Below are positions 37,965 through 45,922 of a stretch of 64,000 bases of DNA, one piece after another; the first letter of the stretch is position 1; each line of letters opens with the position of its first letter. Source of the DNA: Ulvibacter antarcticus. Lineage in GTDB: Bacteria > Bacteroidota > Bacteroidia > Flavobacteriales > Flavobacteriaceae. The position numbers and the translations under genes are program-made. The stretch is taken from assembly GCF_003688405.1 (NCBI RefSeq), contig NZ_REFC01000011.1, positions 558,001 through 622,000 of the forward strand. The letters are read 5' to 3'. The notes under the pieces are model-generated. The model was not told where the DNA came from. It saw only the letters and a list, made by a program, of their open reading frames with translations, and did not search any database.

Positions 37965-38761
37965 TAGCGTTTATAGTGTTGCATGATTTTAGTAAAGGGA
38001 CTTGTTGAGCGATTTTTTATAGCATGTATTGCTGCACAACTAAGTAAAAAAGCTGCAGTAAAGATAGCAGTAAAAGTAACCGTTTGATTGCTGTCCCAGT
38101 TTGCTACGGCAATTGCTGTGAGTGCCCATGAACCAACTAAGGTAAATTCCCGCATATTGCGTTTCAGAATGACCAAGACATTAATAATTCCGGCAATTAT
38201 TATCATTATTAGGGTCCAGGTAGTTTCAGAAATACCCCAACCATTCCAACCAATACTCGAAAGATAGGCCGAAACATTTGCAATGCTAGCGACGGTAACC
38301 CAACCACTATAGACAACAAAAGGCCACCAAAGAAAAAATATTACGGGGAGAGAGGCATCCCATAATTCCATTCGGTTTAGCAAAACAATTTTCAGTAAAG
38401 AAAATAAGAGTACAAAGATGGCTAGTATTGAAAACGCGAAATAGCCATATAACCAGAATAGTACCCAGACGCTATTTGCAATACACGAAAGGACAAACCA
38501 CCAGCCGGTTGTTTCTATAAATGTATCATCTTTTACGGTCGTAAATAAACTCCGACTCTGATAAATGACGAAGCCAAAAAGAAGAAGATAGATCAACCCC
38601 CAAATTGAAAACGCATAAGTCGCGGGTGTAAATAACGTATGAACCGATTTTGAAACTTCTCCAATGGTCGTATTGTTTATAAGTCCGGTGTTTGAGAAAT
38701 AATTGACAAGAATTACAATAACAAACAAGAGTATATTGGCAATTTGAAGTGTTTGTTTCAT
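37964..38761 (-). CDS. TspO/MBR-related tryptophan-rich membrane protein
   Basis: 265 residues with seven or so hydrophobic segments, Trp-rich. The TspO-like features are FSIWGLIYLLLFGFVIYQSR, a W-x-L-x-Y pattern around VLFWLYGYFAF and WWPFVVYSGWVTVA. It is longer than classical TspO (about 160), as in the larger bacterial tryptophan-rich sensory-like group. Inner membrane; possible ligands include porphyrins or sterol-like molecules, but nothing here shows that. Upstream partner of the PLP enzyme. Confidence 0.8.
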   Translation of the reverse strand: MKQTLQIANILLFVIVILVNYFSNTGLINNTTIGEVSKSVHTLFTPATYAFSIWGLIYLLLFGFVIYQSRSLFTTVKDDTFIETTGWWFVLSCIANSVWVLFWLYGYFAFSILAIFVLLFSLLKIVLLNRMELWDASLPVIFFLWWPFVVYSGWVTVASIANVSAYLSSIGWNGWGISETTWTLIMIIIAGIINVLVILKRNMREFTLVGSWALTAIAVANWDSNQTVTFTAIFTAAFLLSCAAIHAIKNRSTSPFTKIMQHYKR

Positions 38762-38912
38762 AGGTATTGATACAGCTTAGTTGCTTAAAATTACATAATT
38801 GGAAAGTAATTGCTTCGGAATTAAGGAAAGATTAAGGATATTGGTTGGAGTAAGGGATTTAAAATTTCTTAAAAGATTCCCTTGGGATACTCGGAATATT
38901 TGTAGCTTAGAT

Positions 38913-38920
38913 TATATTTG
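38913..38920 (+). promoter_or_regulatory. -7 promoter box (TATATTTG) for the TerB-like gene
   Basis: Perfect TAnnTTTG 17 bp before the ATG at 38938. A TTTG at 38899-38902 is too close for a standard -33. Confidence 0.45.
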
Positions 38921-38937
38921 CAGTATAAAATTTTACT

Positions 38938-39363
38938 ATGGCATTTACAGACTTATTTGAGAGCGGAGAACACAGTAGAAATCTTGGACATTTCGCTTCT
39001 ATTGCCAATCTTGCTTCGATCGACGGGGAAATTAACCCGGAAGAGGAAAAATTGTTAAGACGCTTTGCGAGAAAGCTTGATATCGATGAGATTGAGTACG
39101 AAGCTGTATTGAAAAATCCTTCGAAATATCCAATTAACCCACCAAACACTTCCGACAAACGTCTTGAGCGGATGCACGACCTCTTTGAAATGATATTTGT
39201 TGATCACACAATCGACGATCACGAACGATTTTTAATCGAGCGATATGCTATTGGTTTGGGTTATTCTGCAGATTTAGCGCAAAAACTAATTAAACGATCT
39301 ATTAGTATCTATTCTGGAGGACTGGATCTTGAAGACTATAGATATCTTTTGAATAAAAAGTAA
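38938..39363 (+). CDS. TerB-like helical protein
   Basis: 141 residues, all-alpha, with the acidic metal-binding pattern of TerB/DjlA-N domains: ASIDGEINPEEEKLLRRFA (37-55) and a second copy-like motif IFVDHTIDDHERFLIERYA. TerB domains bind divalent metal and occur in many stress-related settings; no other ter genes are present, so a tellurite role is not supported. Its stop shares a 20-bp palindrome with the stop of the convergent histidine kinase. Confidence 0.85.
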   Translation: MAFTDLFESGEHSRNLGHFASIANLASIDGEINPEEEKLLRRFARKLDIDEIEYEAVLKNPSKYPINPPNTSDKRLERMHDLFEMIFVDHTIDDHERFLIERYAIGLGYSADLAQKLIKRSISIYSGGLDLEDYRYLLNKK

Positions 39364-39375
39364 GCTTACTTTTTT
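39355..39375. terminator. Palindrome covering both convergent stop codons
   Basis: AAAAAGTAAGCTTACTTTTT is a perfect 20-bp palindrome. It contains the TAA of the TerB-like gene (39361-39363) and the reverse TAA of the kinase (39366-39368). It gives an 8-bp AT-rich stem with an AGCT loop and a T tract on both strands, so a weak bidirectional terminator is plausible. Confidence 0.5.
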
Positions 39376-40889
39376 AGTACGTTATCAATCTTTGCGAAAA
39401 GCTCTTTCTTGGTATAAGGTTTAGAAAGGAATTGAGATGCACCAGCTGCAATTACTGCATCTTGTTCATCTTTCATATTGCTGCCACTAACCACAAGGAC
39501 TGGAAGTGTTTGTAGATTATTGTTGGAATTATTACGTAAGTGACGTAAAATTTCATAACCATTCATATCTGGAAGGTCCATTTTAAGAAGCACCAAATTA
39601 TACTTTCTGTTTTCAATAAAATCAATTGCCTGTGCACCATCACGGGCAATTTCTATTAAATAGCCATCATCATTCGATAAAAAAGTTTTCATCATTAGCA
39701 TTTGAGTGATCTCGTCGTTTTCGACTATTAAGATGCGCTTGCTAATTACAATCCCTGTACCTTTTGGAACAGATTTTTTCTTAGTTTCTTTCTTTTGTCT
39801 TTCTTCAAAGGGTATGGTAACTGCATAAGTGGTTCCTTCGCCAACAATACTTTCAACTTTTATTTGCCCCTGCATTAACCCTACCAAATCCTTTACTATT
39901 TTAAGTCCTAATCCTTCACCAATTGGTTTTATTTGGTCGAACTCTAATTGGTGATAAGAATCAAAAATAAAAGGAAGCTCCTTTTTTGGTATTCCTACTC
40001 CCGTATCTGAAATAACAATCGTAAAAAATGTTCTATTTAACTTATCGTCTTTTTTCTTAACCGAAAGATGAATGGAAATCCCTCCTTTTTTGGTATTTCT
40101 ATATGCGTTTTCAATAAGATTGAATACTATTTGATTAAGTCTTGTAGGGTCTCCTAGTAATCGGATAGGTAAGTCATCGTCCATTTCAAGCTCTAACTGA
40201 ACTTCTTTCTTGTCGTATTTTAACTTAAAATGCTTTACCAGACTGTTGAACACCTGAGAAAGACTAAAAGGAATATGTTTAACAACGGTGATTCCTTTTT
40301 CAATTTTTGAAATATCTAATAAATCATCAAGTAACACTTTTAAATGTGTACCTGTTTTATTCATGATATTTAGTGTCTCCTTTTGCTCATAAGACAGTTT
40401 GGTGTTATCGAGTATTTCCATGAATCCCAGCATATTATTCAAGGGGTTACGGATTTCATGATTAAGATGAGCTAGAAATTGATTTTTAAGGTCTTCTTTA
40501 GCAATAAGAATATCTCGTTCGAAGGATAGCTTGTGCTTTAGGATAGAGGCTTCGTTTTTTTCCTGTACCAGAGGTTGTGATTCTTGATAATGCGTTGTAA
40601 AATCGAAGATGAGAATTATAATCTTGCCATTTTCCGGGATAATATCTATATCAGCAATGATTATTTTTTCAGAGAATTGTAAATTGACACAGGGGAAATT
40701 AATTTTTTCTGAAAGCTTTTCAAAAAGAGGCAATATACCCTCAAAAAAGGGATGAACATCCTTGATGTTTTGAGATTTATGAAGCTTAAAAAGTGAATCT
40801 TCACTTTCAATTATGCTTCCTTTTAAATCTACTTCAACGATCTGTATTTTACGGTTGTAAATTTCATCTTTATATTTTCCTAACTCCAT
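39366..40889 (-). CDS. Cytoplasmic hybrid histidine kinase with degenerate receiver
   Basis: 507 residues, no membrane segment. Residues 1-105 form a sensor-like domain shared with the two small proteins upstream (HPFFEGI at 46-52, FPCV at 65-68). DHp at about 120-200 with phospho-His144 in HLNHEIRNPLNNML; HATPase with N257/N261, DTGVGIP at 295-301 and GEGLGLKIV at 324-332; receiver at about 385-507. In the receiver, Lys436 stands where the phosphorylated Asp should be (four residues before Pro440), although Lys490 is kept. It is last in the GTPase cluster, 2 bp after GTPase B. Confidence 0.92.
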   Translation of the reverse strand: MELGKYKDEIYNRKIQIVEVDLKGSIIESEDSLFKLHKSQNIKDVHPFFEGILPLFEKLSEKINFPCVNLQFSEKIIIADIDIIPENGKIIILIFDFTTHYQESQPLVQEKNEASILKHKLSFERDILIAKEDLKNQFLAHLNHEIRNPLNNMLGFMEILDNTKLSYEQKETLNIMNKTGTHLKVLLDDLLDISKIEKGITVVKHIPFSLSQVFNSLVKHFKLKYDKKEVQLELEMDDDLPIRLLGDPTRLNQIVFNLIENAYRNTKKGGISIHLSVKKKDDKLNRTFFTIVISDTGVGIPKKELPFIFDSYHQLEFDQIKPIGEGLGLKIVKDLVGLMQGQIKVESIVGEGTTYAVTIPFEERQKKETKKKSVPKGTGIVISKRILIVENDEITQMLMMKTFLSNDDGYLIEIARDGAQAIDFIENRKYNLVLLKMDLPDMNGYEILRHLRNNSNNNLQTLPVLVVSGSNMKDEQDAVIAAGASQFLSKPYTKKELFAKIDNVLKK

Positions 40890-40891
40890 TA

Positions 40892-41383
40892 TTACAGCAT
40901 CTGTTTTGTGATCTTTTGAAACACATTTTCAACATTGTTTCCTTCCTTAGCACTCGTAAAATCGCAATCTTTATATTGTTCTTGTTCAAAGAATTCTTTG
41001 GCGTTTTCTGTGAGTAGTAAATCCGATTTGTTTCCTATTTTACACACCGGAATGGAAGGGAAATTATTTGCAAGAAAATCCATTTCATCTTCTAAGTTTT
41101 CAAAAGTTTCCGGTCGGGTGACATCAAAGACATAAAGAAAACCATGTGTTCCGGTTAAATATGATTTTCGAGCTTTTGAAATGGAAGAATTTCCTTCAAT
41201 ATCCCATATGATAAGCGTTACTTTCGCATCGTCGATCGTTACCACTTTTTTCTTCACTTGAACTCCAAGAGTTACAAGATAGTCCTCGCTAAACATACTG
41301 TCTACAAATCGCCGAACTAAACTCGTCTTTCCTACTCCAAAGTGACCTAATATTACAATCTTTTTTGATTGAGAACTATTCAT
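40892..41383 (-). CDS. Ras-like small GTPase B
   Basis: 163-residue single-domain Rab/Ras-like GTPase. G1 GHFGVGKTS at 13-21, G2 Thr38 in TLGVQ, G3 WDIEG at 60-64, G4 NKSD at 118-121, G5 SAK at 144-146. The residue after G3 Gly is Asn65 rather than Gln, so intrinsic hydrolysis should be slow unless a partner completes the site. No membrane anchor or lipidation site. It resembles MglA/Rup-type bacterial GTPases. Paralogous to GTPase A (42624-43121), and 2 bp upstream of the kinase gene, suggesting it controls or reads that kinase. Confidence 0.9.
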   Translation of the reverse strand: MNSSQSKKIVILGHFGVGKTSLVRRFVDSMFSEDYLVTLGVQVKKKVVTIDDAKVTLIIWDIEGNSSISKARKSYLTGTHGFLYVFDVTRPETFENLEDEMDFLANNFPSIPVCKIGNKSDLLLTENAKEFFEQEQYKDCDFTSAKEGNNVENVFQKITKQML

Positions 41384-41490
41384 TTTTTAAATTGGATTAT
41401 ATATAAATGGAAAATCGACACTAATATAGCCACAAATAATATTACTTAAGTGTTTTCTCTGATTTGATTCTCAGAAACCCAAAAATACGG

Positions 41491-41874
41491 TTATAAAACA
41501 TTAGTTGCACCTATTTTTTTGAGATGCGCATTTAGCTGCTGTTGATTTTTCTGAGATTCGATGTTGTGGAGTTTCTCATATCGCTCTGAGTAGTTAAAAA
41601 GTATAAAGGCTAAAAAGCCATTTTCCCGCTTCACTGTTACATCACAATAGCACTTTTTATTATTGATATAGAAATTTACACAAGGGTAAACAAAAAAAGT
41701 TTTGTTGGAAGTAAGAAATTGCTCTTTTAAACTTTCAAAAAACGGATCTACTTCAAATAAATTAGAAAAAGATTCTAAATTATAAATGGTATTATTGCCT
41801 CCAATAATGGTTCCGTCAGGTTTAATGATGATCTCCTGAAGGACATCTAAAAATGGTTTTTCTATAGTAGACAT
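41491..41874 (-). CDS. Small PAS-like sensor protein of the GTPase cluster (127 residues)
   Basis: The whole protein is one copy of the domain found at the kinase N-terminus and in the 198-residue neighbour: DPFFESL at 43-49, YPCV at 63-66, a C-x-C-D strand at 75-78, and GFLAFILFNYS at 86-96, ending in a short helix. Alternating strands and the length suggest a PAS/GAF-like fold, which is inference. It has its own -7 box and a palindrome at its 5' end, so it can be expressed apart from the upstream genes. No known family name. Confidence 0.75.
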   Translation of the reverse strand: MSTIEKPFLDVLQEIIIKPDGTIIGGNNTIYNLESFSNLFEVDPFFESLKEQFLTSNKTFFVYPCVNFYINNKKCYCDVTVKRENGFLAFILFNYSERYEKLHNIESQKNQQQLNAHLKKIGATNVL

Positions 41875-41912
41875 AACGAGGGGGCGTTTTCGTTTATCTA
41901 AACAAGCAAATC

Positions 41913-41928
41913 TGCTTGAAAGATATTT
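41913..41928. promoter_or_regulatory. 16-bp dyad at the predicted transcription start of the 127-residue gene
   Basis: CAAGCA-AATC-TGCTTG is a perfect dyad lying just downstream of the -7 box at 41933-41940 and 39-54 bp before the start codon. Either an operator or a 5' mRNA hairpin. Confidence 0.45.
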
Positions 41929-41932
41929 CTTA

Positions 41933-41940
41933 CAAATATA
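41933..41940 (-). promoter_or_regulatory. Internal -7 promoter box (TATATTTG) in the GTPase cluster
   Basis: Minus-strand TATATTTG, perfect TAnnTTTG, 59 bp before the start of the gene at 41491-41874, in the 160-bp gap that splits the cluster. Confidence 0.45.
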
Positions 41941-42034
41941 TAATTTATTTTTTAAATGTTGAACTATAGAGATAAATTAGGGCGCTTATTCTAAATTGAT
42001 TAGAAATCTTGATCTTCAATAAAAACGAATTTGG

Positions 42035-42631
42035 CTAATCGAGATCTATTTCTACTCCCTTTTTTATTTGTAACGCTTTTGAGTGTAGGATGGCAATTTT
42101 CGCTTCAATTTTATGAAAGATGGTGAGTTGATTGTTGTTTAAAGTTGTGTGTTTTAAGTCGTTTAAATCACTGATAATGATTTCCAATTCGCCTACTATT
42201 TTAGAATCAATACGCTCACGAATAAATTCCAAATACGCTCTTTTTTCTTCAGAATACTTGGTGTTGAGTTCATGTGCTTGTTCATTGAGCATTGCAGTTT
42301 TCTTTACCTGCGCTGCTTCGTGTAAATTTTGATAATGGTTGGAATAATCGAATAGTAGGATTGCTAAAAACCCCAATTCTTTTTTAATTGTAATATCACA
42401 AATCAGTTCCTGTTTTTCCATTTCTAATTGAACACAGGGAAATGCCAAACTAGTTTCATTGCATTCTAAAAGGGTTCTTTGCAAGCTTTCAAAAAAAGGA
42501 TGAATCGTAAAGATATTCTCACCAAGCCTTAAATCAAAAATGGTATCGCTACTTTGTGTTATTTTACCATCCAAATTAGTATGAATCTCCTGAACCTTGT
42601 TAGAGAAAAAAGTGTTTCCTTGTTTATTCAT
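42035..42631 (-). CDS. PAS-like sensor protein with C-terminal helical hairpin (198 residues)
   Basis: I place the start at the ATG at 42631, which overlaps the GTPase A stop by eight bases (ATGAATAA); a longer frame upstream would run far into that gene. Residues 12-100 are the cluster-specific domain (HPFFESL 44-50, FPCV 64-67, GFLAILLFDYS 87-97). Residues 105-195 are two long helices that resemble a DHp hairpin in layout but lack an H-E/D-x-x-N/P motif. It could be a sensor or an adaptor that dimerises with the kinase. No known family. Confidence 0.78.
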   Translation of the reverse strand: MNKQGNTFFSNKVQEIHTNLDGKITQSSDTIFDLRLGENIFTIHPFFESLQRTLLECNETSLAFPCVQLEMEKQELICDITIKKELGFLAILLFDYSNHYQNLHEAAQVKKTAMLNEQAHELNTKYSEEKRAYLEFIRERIDSKIVGELEIIISDLNDLKHTTLNNNQLTIFHKIEAKIAILHSKALQIKKGVEIDLD

Positions 42632-43121
42632 TTGAACCAATTTTAAAAGCAATATGTCTAAAAATTTCCTCGACACCTTCTCCTGTTTTAGCACTGCAAA
42701 AACCATGAACTTTAAGATTCTTATTTGCTAGATATTCTTCTATACTACTTGAATCCTTTAGGTCATTTTTATTTCCAATGATTTTTAAACATACATTGGG
42801 GTAATTTTTTTCAATATAATCTATTTCTTCTCTCAGATTAAAATAGGTTACAGGCCTTGTAAGGTCAAATACATAAATAAAACCATCGGAGCCAATTAAG
42901 TAAGAAGTTCTGGTATTAGAAACTGAAGAAAAACCTTCCAGGTCCCAAATAATCATAGATAGTTTTTTACCGGAAGGAAGCGTGATTTCTTTTTTCTTTA
43001 TCTGAACACCGAGCGTAGTTTTATAATCTACTTCGAACACGTTCGTCATAAATCGCCTGAGAAGAGACGTTTTACCAACGCCGAACTGCCCCAATAACAC
43101 TATTTTTTTTGTACCCTCCAT
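42624..43121 (-). CDS. Ras-like small GTPase A
   Basis: 165 residues. G1 GQFGVGKTS at 11-19, G2 Thr36 in TTLGVQ, G3 WDLEG at 59-63, G4 NKND at 117-120, G5 SAK at 143-145. As in GTPase B the catalytic Gln after G3 is missing (Phe64 here). The switch-adjacent YLIGSDGFIYVFDLTRPVT is close to the equivalent stretch of GTPase B, showing a local duplication. It overlaps the 3' end of the Roadblock-like gene by 22 bp and the start of the sensor gene by 8 bp, so the three are tightly coupled. Confidence 0.9.
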   Translation of the reverse strand: MEGTKKIVLLGQFGVGKTSLLRRFMTNVFEVDYKTTLGVQIKKKEITLPSGKKLSMIIWDLEGFSSVSNTRTSYLIGSDGFIYVFDLTRPVTYFNLREEIDYIEKNYPNVCLKIIGNKNDLKDSSSIEEYLANKNLKVHGFCSAKTGEGVEEIFRHIAFKIGSNE

Positions 43122-43927
43122 TTTTTAAAGAATTCAATTAAAACGCCATCAATTGCTTCTTTTGTTAAAGTAGAAATTCTAGGGGAGAGGCTTTTAGATA
43201 ATTTAAGTAATCGATTTTCAAGTTTGTTTTCAAAACTTTTGGTGTATGTACCTGAAATAACAACTGCAATATAATAGGTGTGAAAATTTTGAATATGAAT
43301 CGAATATAGCTCGTAATTAATCGCTTCTAGATCTTGTCCGCCACCTTCAAAAGCATCTTCAACAAAACTTTTAATTGCCGTAAGCATTCCGGAAATCATA
43401 TCTTTATCGACCGTTGCCGTATGGCTAAGGTTACCTAACAAGATACCAGATCCTTTTTGTATAACAAACACTTCATTGACGTTAGGAGCATCAAGCTCAC
43501 TAAGCATTAAATCGCTTTCTTTTACACCTGTGAATAGTGCGCGAAATTTTCGCTTAACGGCAACGACAGAAAAGGTGTCGTTAACCTTTCTATTCATGTT
43601 TTCAGACAGTAATTCTATTTCACTTTGAATATAGCGCTTAATCATTTTACCCATTATAGGGTATAATGCTTCGACTACCTGATCTTTGGATTCGGCGATC
43701 TGTTTTTTAAGTGTATCGGTTATAACAGGGCCTAAAGAAAGTGGAATTTCTTCCACAAAAAGTTTAAGCCTTTCTTCAATAATTGGATCCACTTTTTCCG
43801 AAAGTTTTTCCCTTCGTTCTATAGTATCTGTTATAGTCTCAATACGTCGATTTATGGCTTGAGCGACCTCTCTGTCGTCAATCAACAGAATGTCTCTTAG
43901 AAGCTGTAATTTGTCTTCTTTAACCAT
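43100..43927 (-). CDS. Helical protein with probable Roadblock/LC7-like C-terminal domain
   Basis: 275 residues, no signal peptide. Residues 1-140 are charged helices. Residues 148-275 follow the Roadblock strand-strand-helix-strand-strand order: VNEVFVIQKGSGILLGNLS, DKDMISGMLTAIKSFVEDAF, then INYELYSIHIQNFHTYYIAV. The same VF-I-x(4)-GLLL ... VSGMLTAI-FV-DSF pattern occurs N-terminal to OmpA domains in some cyanobacterial proteins; here there is no OmpA domain. Roadblock proteins act as GAPs or platforms for Ras-like GTPases (MglB), and the next gene is such a GTPase, overlapping by 22 bp. Confidence 0.75.
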   Translation of the reverse strand: MVKEDKLQLLRDILLIDDREVAQAINRRIETITDTIERREKLSEKVDPIIEERLKLFVEEIPLSLGPVITDTLKKQIAESKDQVVEALYPIMGKMIKRYIQSEIELLSENMNRKVNDTFSVVAVKRKFRALFTGVKESDLMLSELDAPNVNEVFVIQKGSGILLGNLSHTATVDKDMISGMLTAIKSFVEDAFEGGGQDLEAINYELYSIHIQNFHTYYIAVVISGTYTKSFENKLENRLLKLSKSLSPRISTLTKEAIDGVLIEFFKKWRVQKK

Positions 43928-43944
43928 AAATTAATTGAAATGTA

Positions 43945-44295
43945 CTATGAGATAATTTTTTCGCCTAGGTTGATAAGTAGCTTGCCAAGTTCTCTACGAT
44001 CCATTTTCTTTTCTGAAAGAGAATCGGTTTTAGCAGCCAACGAATTTTCTAGGTCAGTAATGCGAATATTCACATCTGTACTAAGAGAATCAATAGATTG
44101 CATAAGTTCGTTTCGAACCTCATCTATGTAATTTTCAAGGGTTTCTTTTTTATTCTGAAGGTCCTTTTTGAGCGTGTCAAATTCAGTGTCATATTGAACC
44201 ATATTTTCACCAAAAATAAGATTCTTGATCGCTTCAATTTTTGAAGCAGAATCTACAGATTCAACCTCTTTTGGTGGTGTAGTTTTTTTGCTCAT
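43945..44295 (-). CDS. Coiled-coil protein, first gene of the GTPase cluster (116 residues)
   Basis: 116 residues, Lys/Glu/Asp-rich. After a disordered start (SKKTTPPKEVESVDSASK) it has IEAIKNLIFGENMVQYDTEF and then near-continuous heptads to about residue 95 (LENYIDEVRNELMQSIDSL, ITDLENSLAAKTDSL), closing with MDRRELGKLLINLGEKI. Probably a dimeric scaffold. It is 17 bp upstream of the Roadblock-like gene on the same strand. I know no named family. Confidence 0.75.
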   Translation of the reverse strand: MSKKTTPPKEVESVDSASKIEAIKNLIFGENMVQYDTEFDTLKKDLQNKKETLENYIDEVRNELMQSIDSLSTDVNIRITDLENSLAAKTDSLSEKKMDRRELGKLLINLGEKIIS

Positions 44296-44355
44296 TGTTA
44301 CATGTTTGTTAACATAAAATTAAAAAAAAAATAGACAAATTAACTGTTTTCTAGG

Positions 44356-45363
44356 TTATTCTGCATTTTTCATAAACTCTTCTGCTTTTTCGACCATCAA
44401 TTTACTTCCGCAGAAAAAAGGAACTCTTTGATGTAATTGTGTTGGCTTAATATCTAATATTCGCATAAATCCATTGCTGGCCTTAGCTCCCGCTTGCTCT
44501 GCAATATAAGCTATCGGATTGCATTCGTACAACAACCGTAGTTTCCCTTCAGGATCTTTGGATGTATTCGGATAAATATAAATTCCGCCTTTAATCATAT
44601 TTCTATGGAAATCTGATACTAAAGATCCAATATACCGTGATGTATAAGGGCGATCACCTTCTTCCTGCTGACAGTATTTTATATAGTTTTTTACTCCCTG
44701 AGGGAAATGAATATAGTTCCCTTCATTTACAGAATAGATATTTCCGGTTTCAGGAAACCTCATATTTGGATGTGATAAATAATAGGTTCCAATGGCGGGA
44801 TTAAGAGTAAATCCATTAACTCCATGCCCAGTGCTGTAAACGATCATTGTGGAAGTTCCATAAACAATATATCCTGCCGCGACCTGTAGATTTCCCGGCT
44901 GTAAAAAATCTTCCATGGTAACCGGAGTACCAGACGCAGTAACCCTTCTATAAATTGAAAATATTGTCCCTACAGAAACATTTACATCTATATTTGAAGA
45001 TCCGTCTAATGGATCAATTAGGACTATGTATTTATTGTCGTTTTTTTCATTGCGCCCTTTAATTGTAATAAAATCATCTTCTTCTTCACTTGCAATCCCA
45101 CAAACGATTTCACGATTGGTTAAGGTTTTAATAAAAACCTCATTAGCATACACATCCAGTTTTTGTTGGTCTTCTCCTTGAATGTTGGTTTCACCTGCGG
45201 TACCTAAGATGTCCACAAGTCCTGCTTTATTTACCTCATGGTTTACTACTTTGGCTGCTAGACGAATAGAGTTGATCAATCTGGAGAGTTCTCCAGAAGA
45301 ATATTGAAATTCACTTTGATTTTCAATGATAAACTCTCCGAGTGTCTGATTTTTTTTAGGCAT
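44356..45363 (-). CDS. fbp: Class I fructose-1,6-bisphosphatase
   Basis: 335 residues, full length. Metal and substrate motifs: SEEEDD at 92-97, [20 protein letters not shown] at 117-136, [20 protein letters not shown] near 240, and [19 protein letters not shown] near 276. It hydrolyses fructose-1,6-bisphosphate in gluconeogenesis. It is divergent from an acetyltransferase-aspartokinase pair, with a perfect 12-bp inverted repeat between them. The GTPase cluster follows 60 bp downstream on the same strand. Confidence 0.96.
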
Positions 45364-45387
45364 TTTGCTGTGTTGTAGTGAATTTCG

Positions 45388-45429
45388 AACAAATATCGGG
45401 ATTTTTCAGAAATTGAACCGATATTTGTT
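45388..45429. promoter_or_regulatory. 12-bp inverted repeat between fbp and the acetyltransferase gene
   Basis: AACAAATATCGG (45388-45399) and CCGATATTTGTT (45418-45429) are exact reverse complements 18 nt apart. Each arm read outward contains GATATTTG, one base off the TAnnTTTG -7 box, at 24 bp from fbp and 17 bp from the ATG at 45446. They may be mirror-image -7 elements, a shared operator, or both. Confidence 0.55.
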
Positions 45430-45445
45430 TAGCAAAACACCATTT

Positions 45446-45922
45446 ATGAATATTGAGATTCGAAAAGCCACTAAAGAGGATATGACAAAGGTGTTGGAGC
45501 TTATTACTGAACTGGCAATTTTTGAAAAAGAACCCAATGCTGTAGAAGTGACAGTTTCTGACCTCCAAAAAAGTGGATTTGGCGAGGATCCCATGTTCAA
45601 ATGCTGGGTCGCAGAGGTAAATCGCGAAGTGGTGGGAATGGCCTTGGTATATTTTCGCTTTTCTACATGGAAAGGGAAAACTGTACATTTAGAAGACCTG
45701 GTCGTAAAAGAAAGCATGCGTGGAAAAGGAGTTGGAGAAGCTTTATACACTGAGGTAATGAAGTATGGACATTCCAAAGGCGTAAAAAGAATACAATGGG
45801 AAGTACTTGGTTGGAATGAAGGCGCCATTAAATTTTACGAACGAAGTGGAGCCCATGTTTTAAGAGATTGGCATGTGGTACATATGAGCGAAGAAGGAAT
45901 TGAAAATTATATCAAAAAATAG
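45446..45922 (+). CDS. GNAT-family N-acetyltransferase
   Basis: 158 residues from the ATG at 45446; the frame is open upstream but that would cross the promoter arms. GNAT motif A is clear (HLEDLVVKESMRGKGVGEALY, split at about 75-95), with VLGWNEGAIKFYERSGA as motif B. Similar to the spermidine/spermine acetyltransferase-like group. The substrate is unknown. Probably co-transcribed with the aspartokinase 47 bp downstream. Confidence 0.9.
   Translation: MNIEIRKATKEDMTKVLELITELAIFEKEPNAVEVTVSDLQKSGFGEDPMFKCWVAEVNREVVGMALVYFRFSTWKGKTVHLEDLVVKESMRGKGVGEALYTEVMKYGHSKGVKRIQWEVLGWNEGAIKFYERSGAHVLRDWHVVHMSEEGIENYIKK

Follow-up and report, generated by a model that had tools for sequence, protein, structure and literature searches.

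Which kind of signalling system is encoded by seven consecutive genes of Ulvibacter antarcticus that place two Ras-like GTPases beside a histidine kinase? The genes lie in a stretch of 64,000 nucleotides (contig NZ_REFC01000011.1, positions 558,001 to 622,000), called the window in the following, and fill positions 39366-44295 of the minus strand in the order CC116, P275, RupA, S198, S127, RupB and kinase. An earlier note, made from the sequence alone, had described this order and range, and inspection of the open reading frames (ORFs) confirmed both. The overlaps of 22 bp between P275 and RupA and of 8 bp between RupA and S198, as well as the gap of 2 bp between RupB and the kinase, were also correct; the 8 bp overlap requires a start of S198 at the ATG at 42631. 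The longest ORF at this place has 223 residues, but the inner ATG was preferred because a homologue of 198 residues is present in Cochleicola (G039). We read the cluster as an expanded Group 1 Rup signalling operon that works by the mechanism proposed below, and assign to this reading a probability of about 0.6.

Both GTPases, RupA (42624-43121, 165 residues) and RupB (40892-41383, 163 residues), matched the Pfam family Ras with E values of 9.3e-30 and 1.7e-33, and the duplication of a Ras-like GTPase noticed earlier is real. They carry the G1-G5 motifs GxFGVGKTS, the switch I threonine, WDxEG, NKxD and SAK. The position of the catalytic Gln61 of Ras is occupied by Phe in all 11 RupA sequences and by Asn (11) or Ser (1) in RupB, with Asn in the window; 61 of 62 Rups compared lack a catalytic Gln at G3, one has it. 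According to PMC4316618, Group 1 Rup GTPases lack the G3 Gln. Their gene neighbours encode a coiled-coil protein, an unknown-domain protein that often continues into a transmembrane (TM) helix and an OmpA domain, and an output module whose N-terminal region carries an invariant Gln and which is usually a histidine kinase or a GGDEF/EAL fusion. Its authors propose a signalling complex and a link between GTPase and kinase. By gene content and motifs the cluster is a Group 1 Rup system: a Rup without G3 Gln, a coiled-coil protein, an unknown-domain protein and an invariant-Gln kinase stand in one gene neighbourhood. The four-gene core has already been published, and the earlier statement that the cluster has no described counterpart does not hold. 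CC116 (43945-44295, 116 residues), the first gene, encodes a small helical protein with homologues in relatives and with only helical Pfam matches below the cut-off; it probably takes the place of the coiled-coil neighbour. P275 (43100-43927, 275 residues) corresponds to the unknown-domain protein in a version lacking TM helix and OmpA, parts named as frequent and not as obligatory; neither CC116 nor P275 has a TM-like stretch. The window further differs from the published core by its two Rups, by a pair of stand-alone PAS proteins, of which one has a DHp-like part lacking the phosphoacceptor histidine (phospho-His), and by a Lys in place of the receiver Asp. New are the expansion, the PAS reading of the repeated domain and the longin reading of P275. 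In the literature screened (titles and abstract openings, with few subscription journals covered) no longin in a Rup system, no Rup experiment and no such expansion appeared, and according to PMC4316618 no Rup had been studied experimentally, apart from a demonstration of transcription for one.

The named loci are the best 80 of 419 relatives and are hence biased to the kin of the window. The order CC-P275-Rup-PAS/kinase is present in 52 of them. Nine loci have the core plus a second PAS-kinase, one the core plus an extra kinase-like gene, five the order CC-P275-PAS-Rup-PAS/kinase and 11 the two-Rup form, including one (L020) in which both RupA and the PAS protein are fragmentary; contig ends cut two loci. 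A CC116 homologue adjoins the P275 gene in 80/80. This recurrence of the core gene order in relatives places the cluster far beyond chance, and the claim of one conserved unit that links Ras-like GTPases and a kinase by a repeated domain stands. Among 249 genomes of the family, 52 have P275 and a Rup, one has P275 alone and 196 have neither; the 52 genomes with a Rup, counted at E<=1e-20, all fall within the 53 with P275. A Rup lies within 1 kb of 52 of the 54 P275 genes. Among 392 genomes of the phylum, 15 gave matches to the P275 profile: 11 distant ones and four close ones, namely the own genome, one from the same class and two from the same family. The 12 distant P275-type genes have open frames of about 600-740 codons with a TM-like stretch (12/12) and OmpA (5/5 scanned), and P275 is homologous to the N-terminal part of these OmpA proteins adjoining distant Rups; a CC homologue accompanies 11 of the 12. 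These patterns bear on the idea that the neighbours share no common pathway and are held together by synteny with the upstream gene at 44356-45363, whose product we take, by family resemblance, to be fructose-1,6-bisphosphatase (fbp). An fbp homologue indeed stands upstream on the same strand in 72/80 named loci, but P275 and Rup are both present or both absent in 248 of the 249 genomes, the set is found again in further classes of the phylum (a Rup in nine of the 12 fetched stretches), and one genome (G636) keeps the CC-P275 and the Rup-kinase pairs although they are apart. Synteny as the sole bond is in our view highly improbable. One further genome (G643) carries two whole Rup operons (L175, L176); the L175 operon is probably of the common type.

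The most informative neighbour is P275, which combines a helical N-terminal part with a C-terminal domain (residues 149-273, 43109-43483). In the AlphaFold2 model this domain has the topology strand-strand-helix-three strands-two helices (DSSP). Its best structural match was the sigma-adaptin chain 4p6z_S (Z 13.7, 117 aligned residues, root mean square deviation (rmsd) 2.6), and the 50 rows shown by the structure comparison (Z 10.8-13.7) included sigma- and mu-adaptins, chains of the COPI coat, Sec22b, Ykt6, VAMP7, Mon1-Ccz1, TRAPP, Fuzzy-Inturned and a longin of Lokiarchaeota (8yqg_B, Z 12.0). We take these chains to be of the longin fold. MglB chains were among the best 50 rows of Foldseek and absent among the 50 rows shown by VIA-align, an absence that does not exclude them as matches. 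Longins are described in PMC10933270 as lacking the N-terminal helix of Roadblock proteins and possessing an extra C-terminal helix; the model agrees with this hallmark by an extra helix at residues 256-270. The C-terminal domain is thus predicted to be a member of the wider Roadblock/longin fold and to adopt longin rather than Roadblock topology. In an alignment of the window protein with 53 of 78 distinct named P275 sequences, the helix 175-194 was most conserved, with 10 of 20 residues invariant versus 25 of 255 elsewhere.

Sequence comparison gave faint signals. The scan with Pfam and NCBIfam placed neither P275 nor S127 nor S198 (as the ORF of 223 residues) in a family above the cut-off. 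At E<=10 the window P275 matched no longin family in Pfam, with HMMER filters dropping most weak matches, and the 54 P275 sequences yielded scattered weak matches (among 25 of 127 families listed). A search of the Protein Data Bank (PDB) returned one match for the sequence (LRO-C2-35, E 0.64) and one for the profile (a designed protein, E 0.25). The hhalign comparison of P275 with 17 bacterial Roadblock proteins, taken from 20 Roadblock loci, was weak (P 0.0028, probability 11%), as was the alignment of its residues 147-226, numbered as in L020, with the eight short ones among them (P 4.4e-4, probability 34%); of the controls, 30 column shuffles reached at best P 0.18 and four other profiles 0.017. 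The own genome contained no match to Robl_LC7, and P275 was dropped as a Roadblock/LC7 protein for this reason; the superfamily relation was kept. Of the label Roadblock/LC7-like given earlier to P275, the predicted wider fold survives; the Robl_LC7 match is missing, and the predicted topology is that of a longin.

MglA/MglB, the comparison drawn in the earlier note, also pairs a small GTPase with a protein of the Roadblock/longin fold, and the predicted fold of P275 favours a polarity module of this type. The missing Robl_LC7 match argues against it, as does the GTPase family: the G3 Asp is present in both window Rups (WDxEG), whereas MglA proteins have Thr at this position according to PMC3000849 and PMC4316618. 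The latter reports that 0 of 121 Rups are coupled to MglB. Membership of the MglA/MglB system is largely refuted and now very improbable. A likeness is also found in the longin regulators of Rab proteins, Mon1-Ccz1, TRAPP and Fuzzy-Inturned, and in the Lokiarchaeota chain 8yqg_B, since P275 is by gene neighbourhood a predicted longin close to a Ras/Rab-type GTPase. It differs from these in lacking a detectable sequence match to longin families, and its pairing with the GTPases is inferred from the neighbourhood.

The second subject is the domain that links the GTPases with the kinase. The kinase (39366-40889, 507 residues) comprises the Pfam domains HisKA, HATPase_c and Response_reg behind an N-terminal domain (residues 1-118, 40536-40889). 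A search of the own genome with this N-domain gave three matches at E<=0.001, all inside the cluster, in agreement with the three copies of an unnamed domain reported before. S127 (41491-41874, 127 residues) is a stand-alone copy, homologous to the kinase N-domain and grouping with the stand-alone proteins. The model of S198 (42035-42631, 198 residues), with a predicted local distance difference test score (pLDDT) of 92, matched FixL with its first domain (Z 10.8) and ERS1 with a long, DHp-like helical hairpin at residues 101-197 (Z 9.4); Foldseek ranked the blue-light photoreceptor 4gcz_A first (207 columns, but an rmsd of 9.6) and chimeric LOV histidine kinases next. The repeated domain is predicted to be PAS-like, and S198 resembles the front half of the kinase (PAS-DHp). 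In an alignment of 17 stand-alone domains and 35 kinases, the phospho-His was present in 35/35 kinases versus 0/11 S198-type proteins; in a wider set of 84 kinases of more than 450 residues, 81 have it. The window kinase retains H144 as phospho-His and N261 of the N box and has K436 at the receiver acceptor, so that, by these residues, the kinase part is intact and the receiver degenerate. The designation as hybrid histidine kinase was right in domain content and wrong in implying a receiver phospho-Asp. Across the 84 kinases the acceptor is D (36), K (24), S (11), N (9), A (3) or T (1); all 24 with Lys come from the RupB clade, whose 25th kinase (L039) has D.

The PAS domain of the kinase bears Gln109, which is found in 88/88 kinase N-domains and 16/18 stand-alone domains, the latter including the fragment of 65 residues from L020. 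S127 is one of the two exceptions, with Ser at the aligned position and Gln one residue later. In three alignments the Gln was also present in 9/9 kinases encoded next to divergent or distant Rups, L137 and L138 excluded. It probably corresponds to the invariant Gln reported in PMC4316618. Asn112 is likewise present in 88/88 kinase PAS domains; 13 of the 18 stand-alone domains have Lys instead. A tree of 61 PAS domains, thinned like the Rup tree and without the L020 fragment, placed the kinase domains of the 25 RupB-clade loci in a firm clade (99/93) and the stand-alone proteins, on few columns, in one separate clade of 17 rows (99/94). In another lineage (L055, L061, L068, L071, L076-L078, L080, L084) the kinase itself is duplicated, and in 9/9 second copies Asn replaces the receiver Asp.

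How did the second GTPase arise? The tree of 62 Rups, from which most loci above L060 and the RupA fragment of L020 were left out, united RupA in one clade of 11 rows (100/99); RupB and the Rups of one-Rup loci in the same genera grouped together (25 rows, 88/96, below the tree's own mark for firm support). Among the loci examined, the two-Rup form was confined to this Ulvibacter-like clade, and two Rups in one place occurred in five of the 52 Rup-bearing genomes of the family (G000, G062, G039, G475, G539). Of 81 loci, only that of the window combines a short PAS protein with an S198-type protein. As judged from these sequences, the published core has been enlarged within one clade by a second GTPase and by the stand-alone PAS proteins. 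The simplest reading is that, close to the base of this clade, a Rup was duplicated once and a PAS protein derived from the kinase was added, and that RupA was then lost repeatedly. A tblastn search (E 0.05) of 18 one-Rup loci, five of them outside the clade, detected no remnant of RupA or S198 in their enlarged gap. The locus L020 (6968-7710; also L151), from a metagenome-assembled genome of an uncultured Ulvibacter, has RupA and S198-type fragments of 109 and 65 residues, with RupA in two matches, one having an internal TAA; these fragments reflect either decay or an assembly error.

The RupA-S198-S127 part might be a decaying duplication without present function, leaving the RupB-kinase core as the only working unit. 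RupA is absent in 13 of the 25 clade members and broken in L020; S127 is divergent, carries Ser in the aligned place of the Gln, and stands between spacers of 160 and 107 bp that hold no ORF of the set. Maintained function is indicated by eleven intact pairs of RupA and S198-type proteins with common specific changes, namely Phe at the Gln61 position and no phospho-His. The ratio of nonsynonymous to synonymous substitution rates (dN/dS) points in the same direction: it is 0.18 for S198 against U. litoralis and 0.045-0.062 for RupA in three other pairs, the latter at dS 2.5-2.9. The value for S198 and those for CC (0.08) and P275 (0.06) against U. litoralis, all three at an unsaturated dS of 1.4-2.3, are a rough sign of purifying selection on these genes. 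We consider decay unlikely.

For an operon in which both branches are functional we propose the following sequence of events, the direction of the signal and all interactions being inferred. P275 would bind the Rups through its longin-like domain, together with the coiled-coil protein, and set their nucleotide state as an exchange factor or scaffold. RupB-GTP would dock on the PAS domain of the kinase and shift kinase activity. Because the Rup lacks a catalytic Gln of its own, Gln109 at the junction of PAS domain and helix may complete GTP hydrolysis in trans; such a role of the invariant Gln of Rup outputs is raised in PMC4316618. RupA would act on S198, which could dimerise like the kinase. 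Since S198 cannot be phosphorylated on the usual His, the branch of RupA and S198, possibly with S127, would compete with or tune the RupB-kinase branch. The loss of the receiver Asp implies that phosphate would leave to a separate response regulator or that the kinase would work mainly by conformation. More tentative, and to us rather doubtful as a whole, is the extended view that Rup operons encode a true bacterial longin regulating kin of Rab and Ras, that the pairing of Rab and longin is pre-eukaryotic and parallel to that of MglA and Roadblock, and that a GTP-locked RupA (Phe at Gln61) with a His-less kinase decoy opposes the RupB-kinase branch.

The signal could also flow in reverse, with the PAS kinase as sensor, the GTPase as output, and P275 and CC as effectors at the envelope or cytoskeleton. 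PAS domains are commonly sensors. Such a flow has been posited for the actinobacterial conservons (AGPS; CvnA-D), where the GTPase is the output according to PMC4316618. Conservons resemble the cluster in that one operon encodes a histidine kinase, a Ras-like GTPase with its Roadblock partner, and accessory proteins, and differ in having an MglA-family GTPase with an MglB-type Roadblock; the likeness is one of description. In the Cvn8 system the accessory protein CvnF8 can stimulate such a kinase (PMC13343842), a precedent for the proposed action of an accessory protein on the kinase of a GTPase operon. Reverse flow gains from the lost receiver Asp in 24/25 clade kinases, because of which a classical phosphorelay output is doubtful, and from genomes in which CC and P275 stay paired apart from Rup and kinase (G636) or without a Rup (G556). 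Stand-alone PAS proteins beside a second GTPase fit a PAS domain that reads the GTPase better, and so do the GGDEF/EAL outputs behind the invariant-Gln N-region in other Rup systems, as given in PMC4316618. Reverse flow is a serious rival, if an unlikely one.

Several observations weigh against the proposed mechanism, in which P275 acts on the Rups and these on the kinase. The model of P275 has a mean pLDDT of 67, with values of 55-66 over most of the conserved helix 175-194. Foldseek distinguishes longin from Roadblock only mildly for this model, with E 2.6e-4 and TMt 0.52 for the longin 4p6z_S versus E 3.8e-3 and TMt 0.53 for the MglB chain 6izw_C. The Z score of 9.4 for the S198 hairpin may reflect only a common helix arrangement. 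Because of the losses in the clade and the broken gene in L020, the RupA branch is dispensable. In the comparison with U. litoralis, the dS values of RupA, RupB and the kinase are saturated. The genes need not be together: a neighbourhood check, suggested earlier, found them apart in one of 54 cases (G636), with CC-P275 and Rup-kinase on different contigs, away from the ends and each pair intact, and in one more (G556) CC-P275 is present and no Rup was found at all. Likewise, no Rup was seen within the fetched stretches of three distant loci (L140, L141, L144).

The flanks of the cluster were also inspected. The fbp gene (minus strand) lies 60 bp upstream, and in 61 of the 72 loci with an upstream homologue the distance is 34-76 bp; fbp and the cluster possibly form one transcription unit or an old synteny. 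Downstream, a convergent gene (38938-39363, plus strand) with a TerB match above the Pfam cut-off (E 3.8e-6) ends 2 bp from the stop codon of the kinase. A promoter and terminator scan of 38700-45500 gave 26 promoter-like sites versus 26.2 expected and one terminator-like site versus 3.9 expected. The starts of CC116 (44295-44200) and P275 (43927-43850) share a similar motif, approximately IKNLIFG and LRDILL, which is also found in distant loci; hhalign of CC with P275 recovered this short common N-terminal motif with P 0.0056, too weak to build on. It is perhaps a docking peptide.

The longin-Rup pairing is the most interesting part of the locus, whose core is known but little studied. A longin-topology protein tied to a bacterial Rup would supply a candidate regulator of Rup proteins, which PMC4915359 calls the closest prokaryotic group to Rab, Rho, Ras and Ran. 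Longin domains have been explained as derived from MglB-type Roadblocks (PMC3521125), and the origin of the Rab-longin pairing would become testable with purified bacterial proteins. The expanded operon is a natural experiment, with a duplicated GTPase, a kinase-like decoy and a degenerate receiver, in which the second GTPase would have been lost again several times inside one clade.

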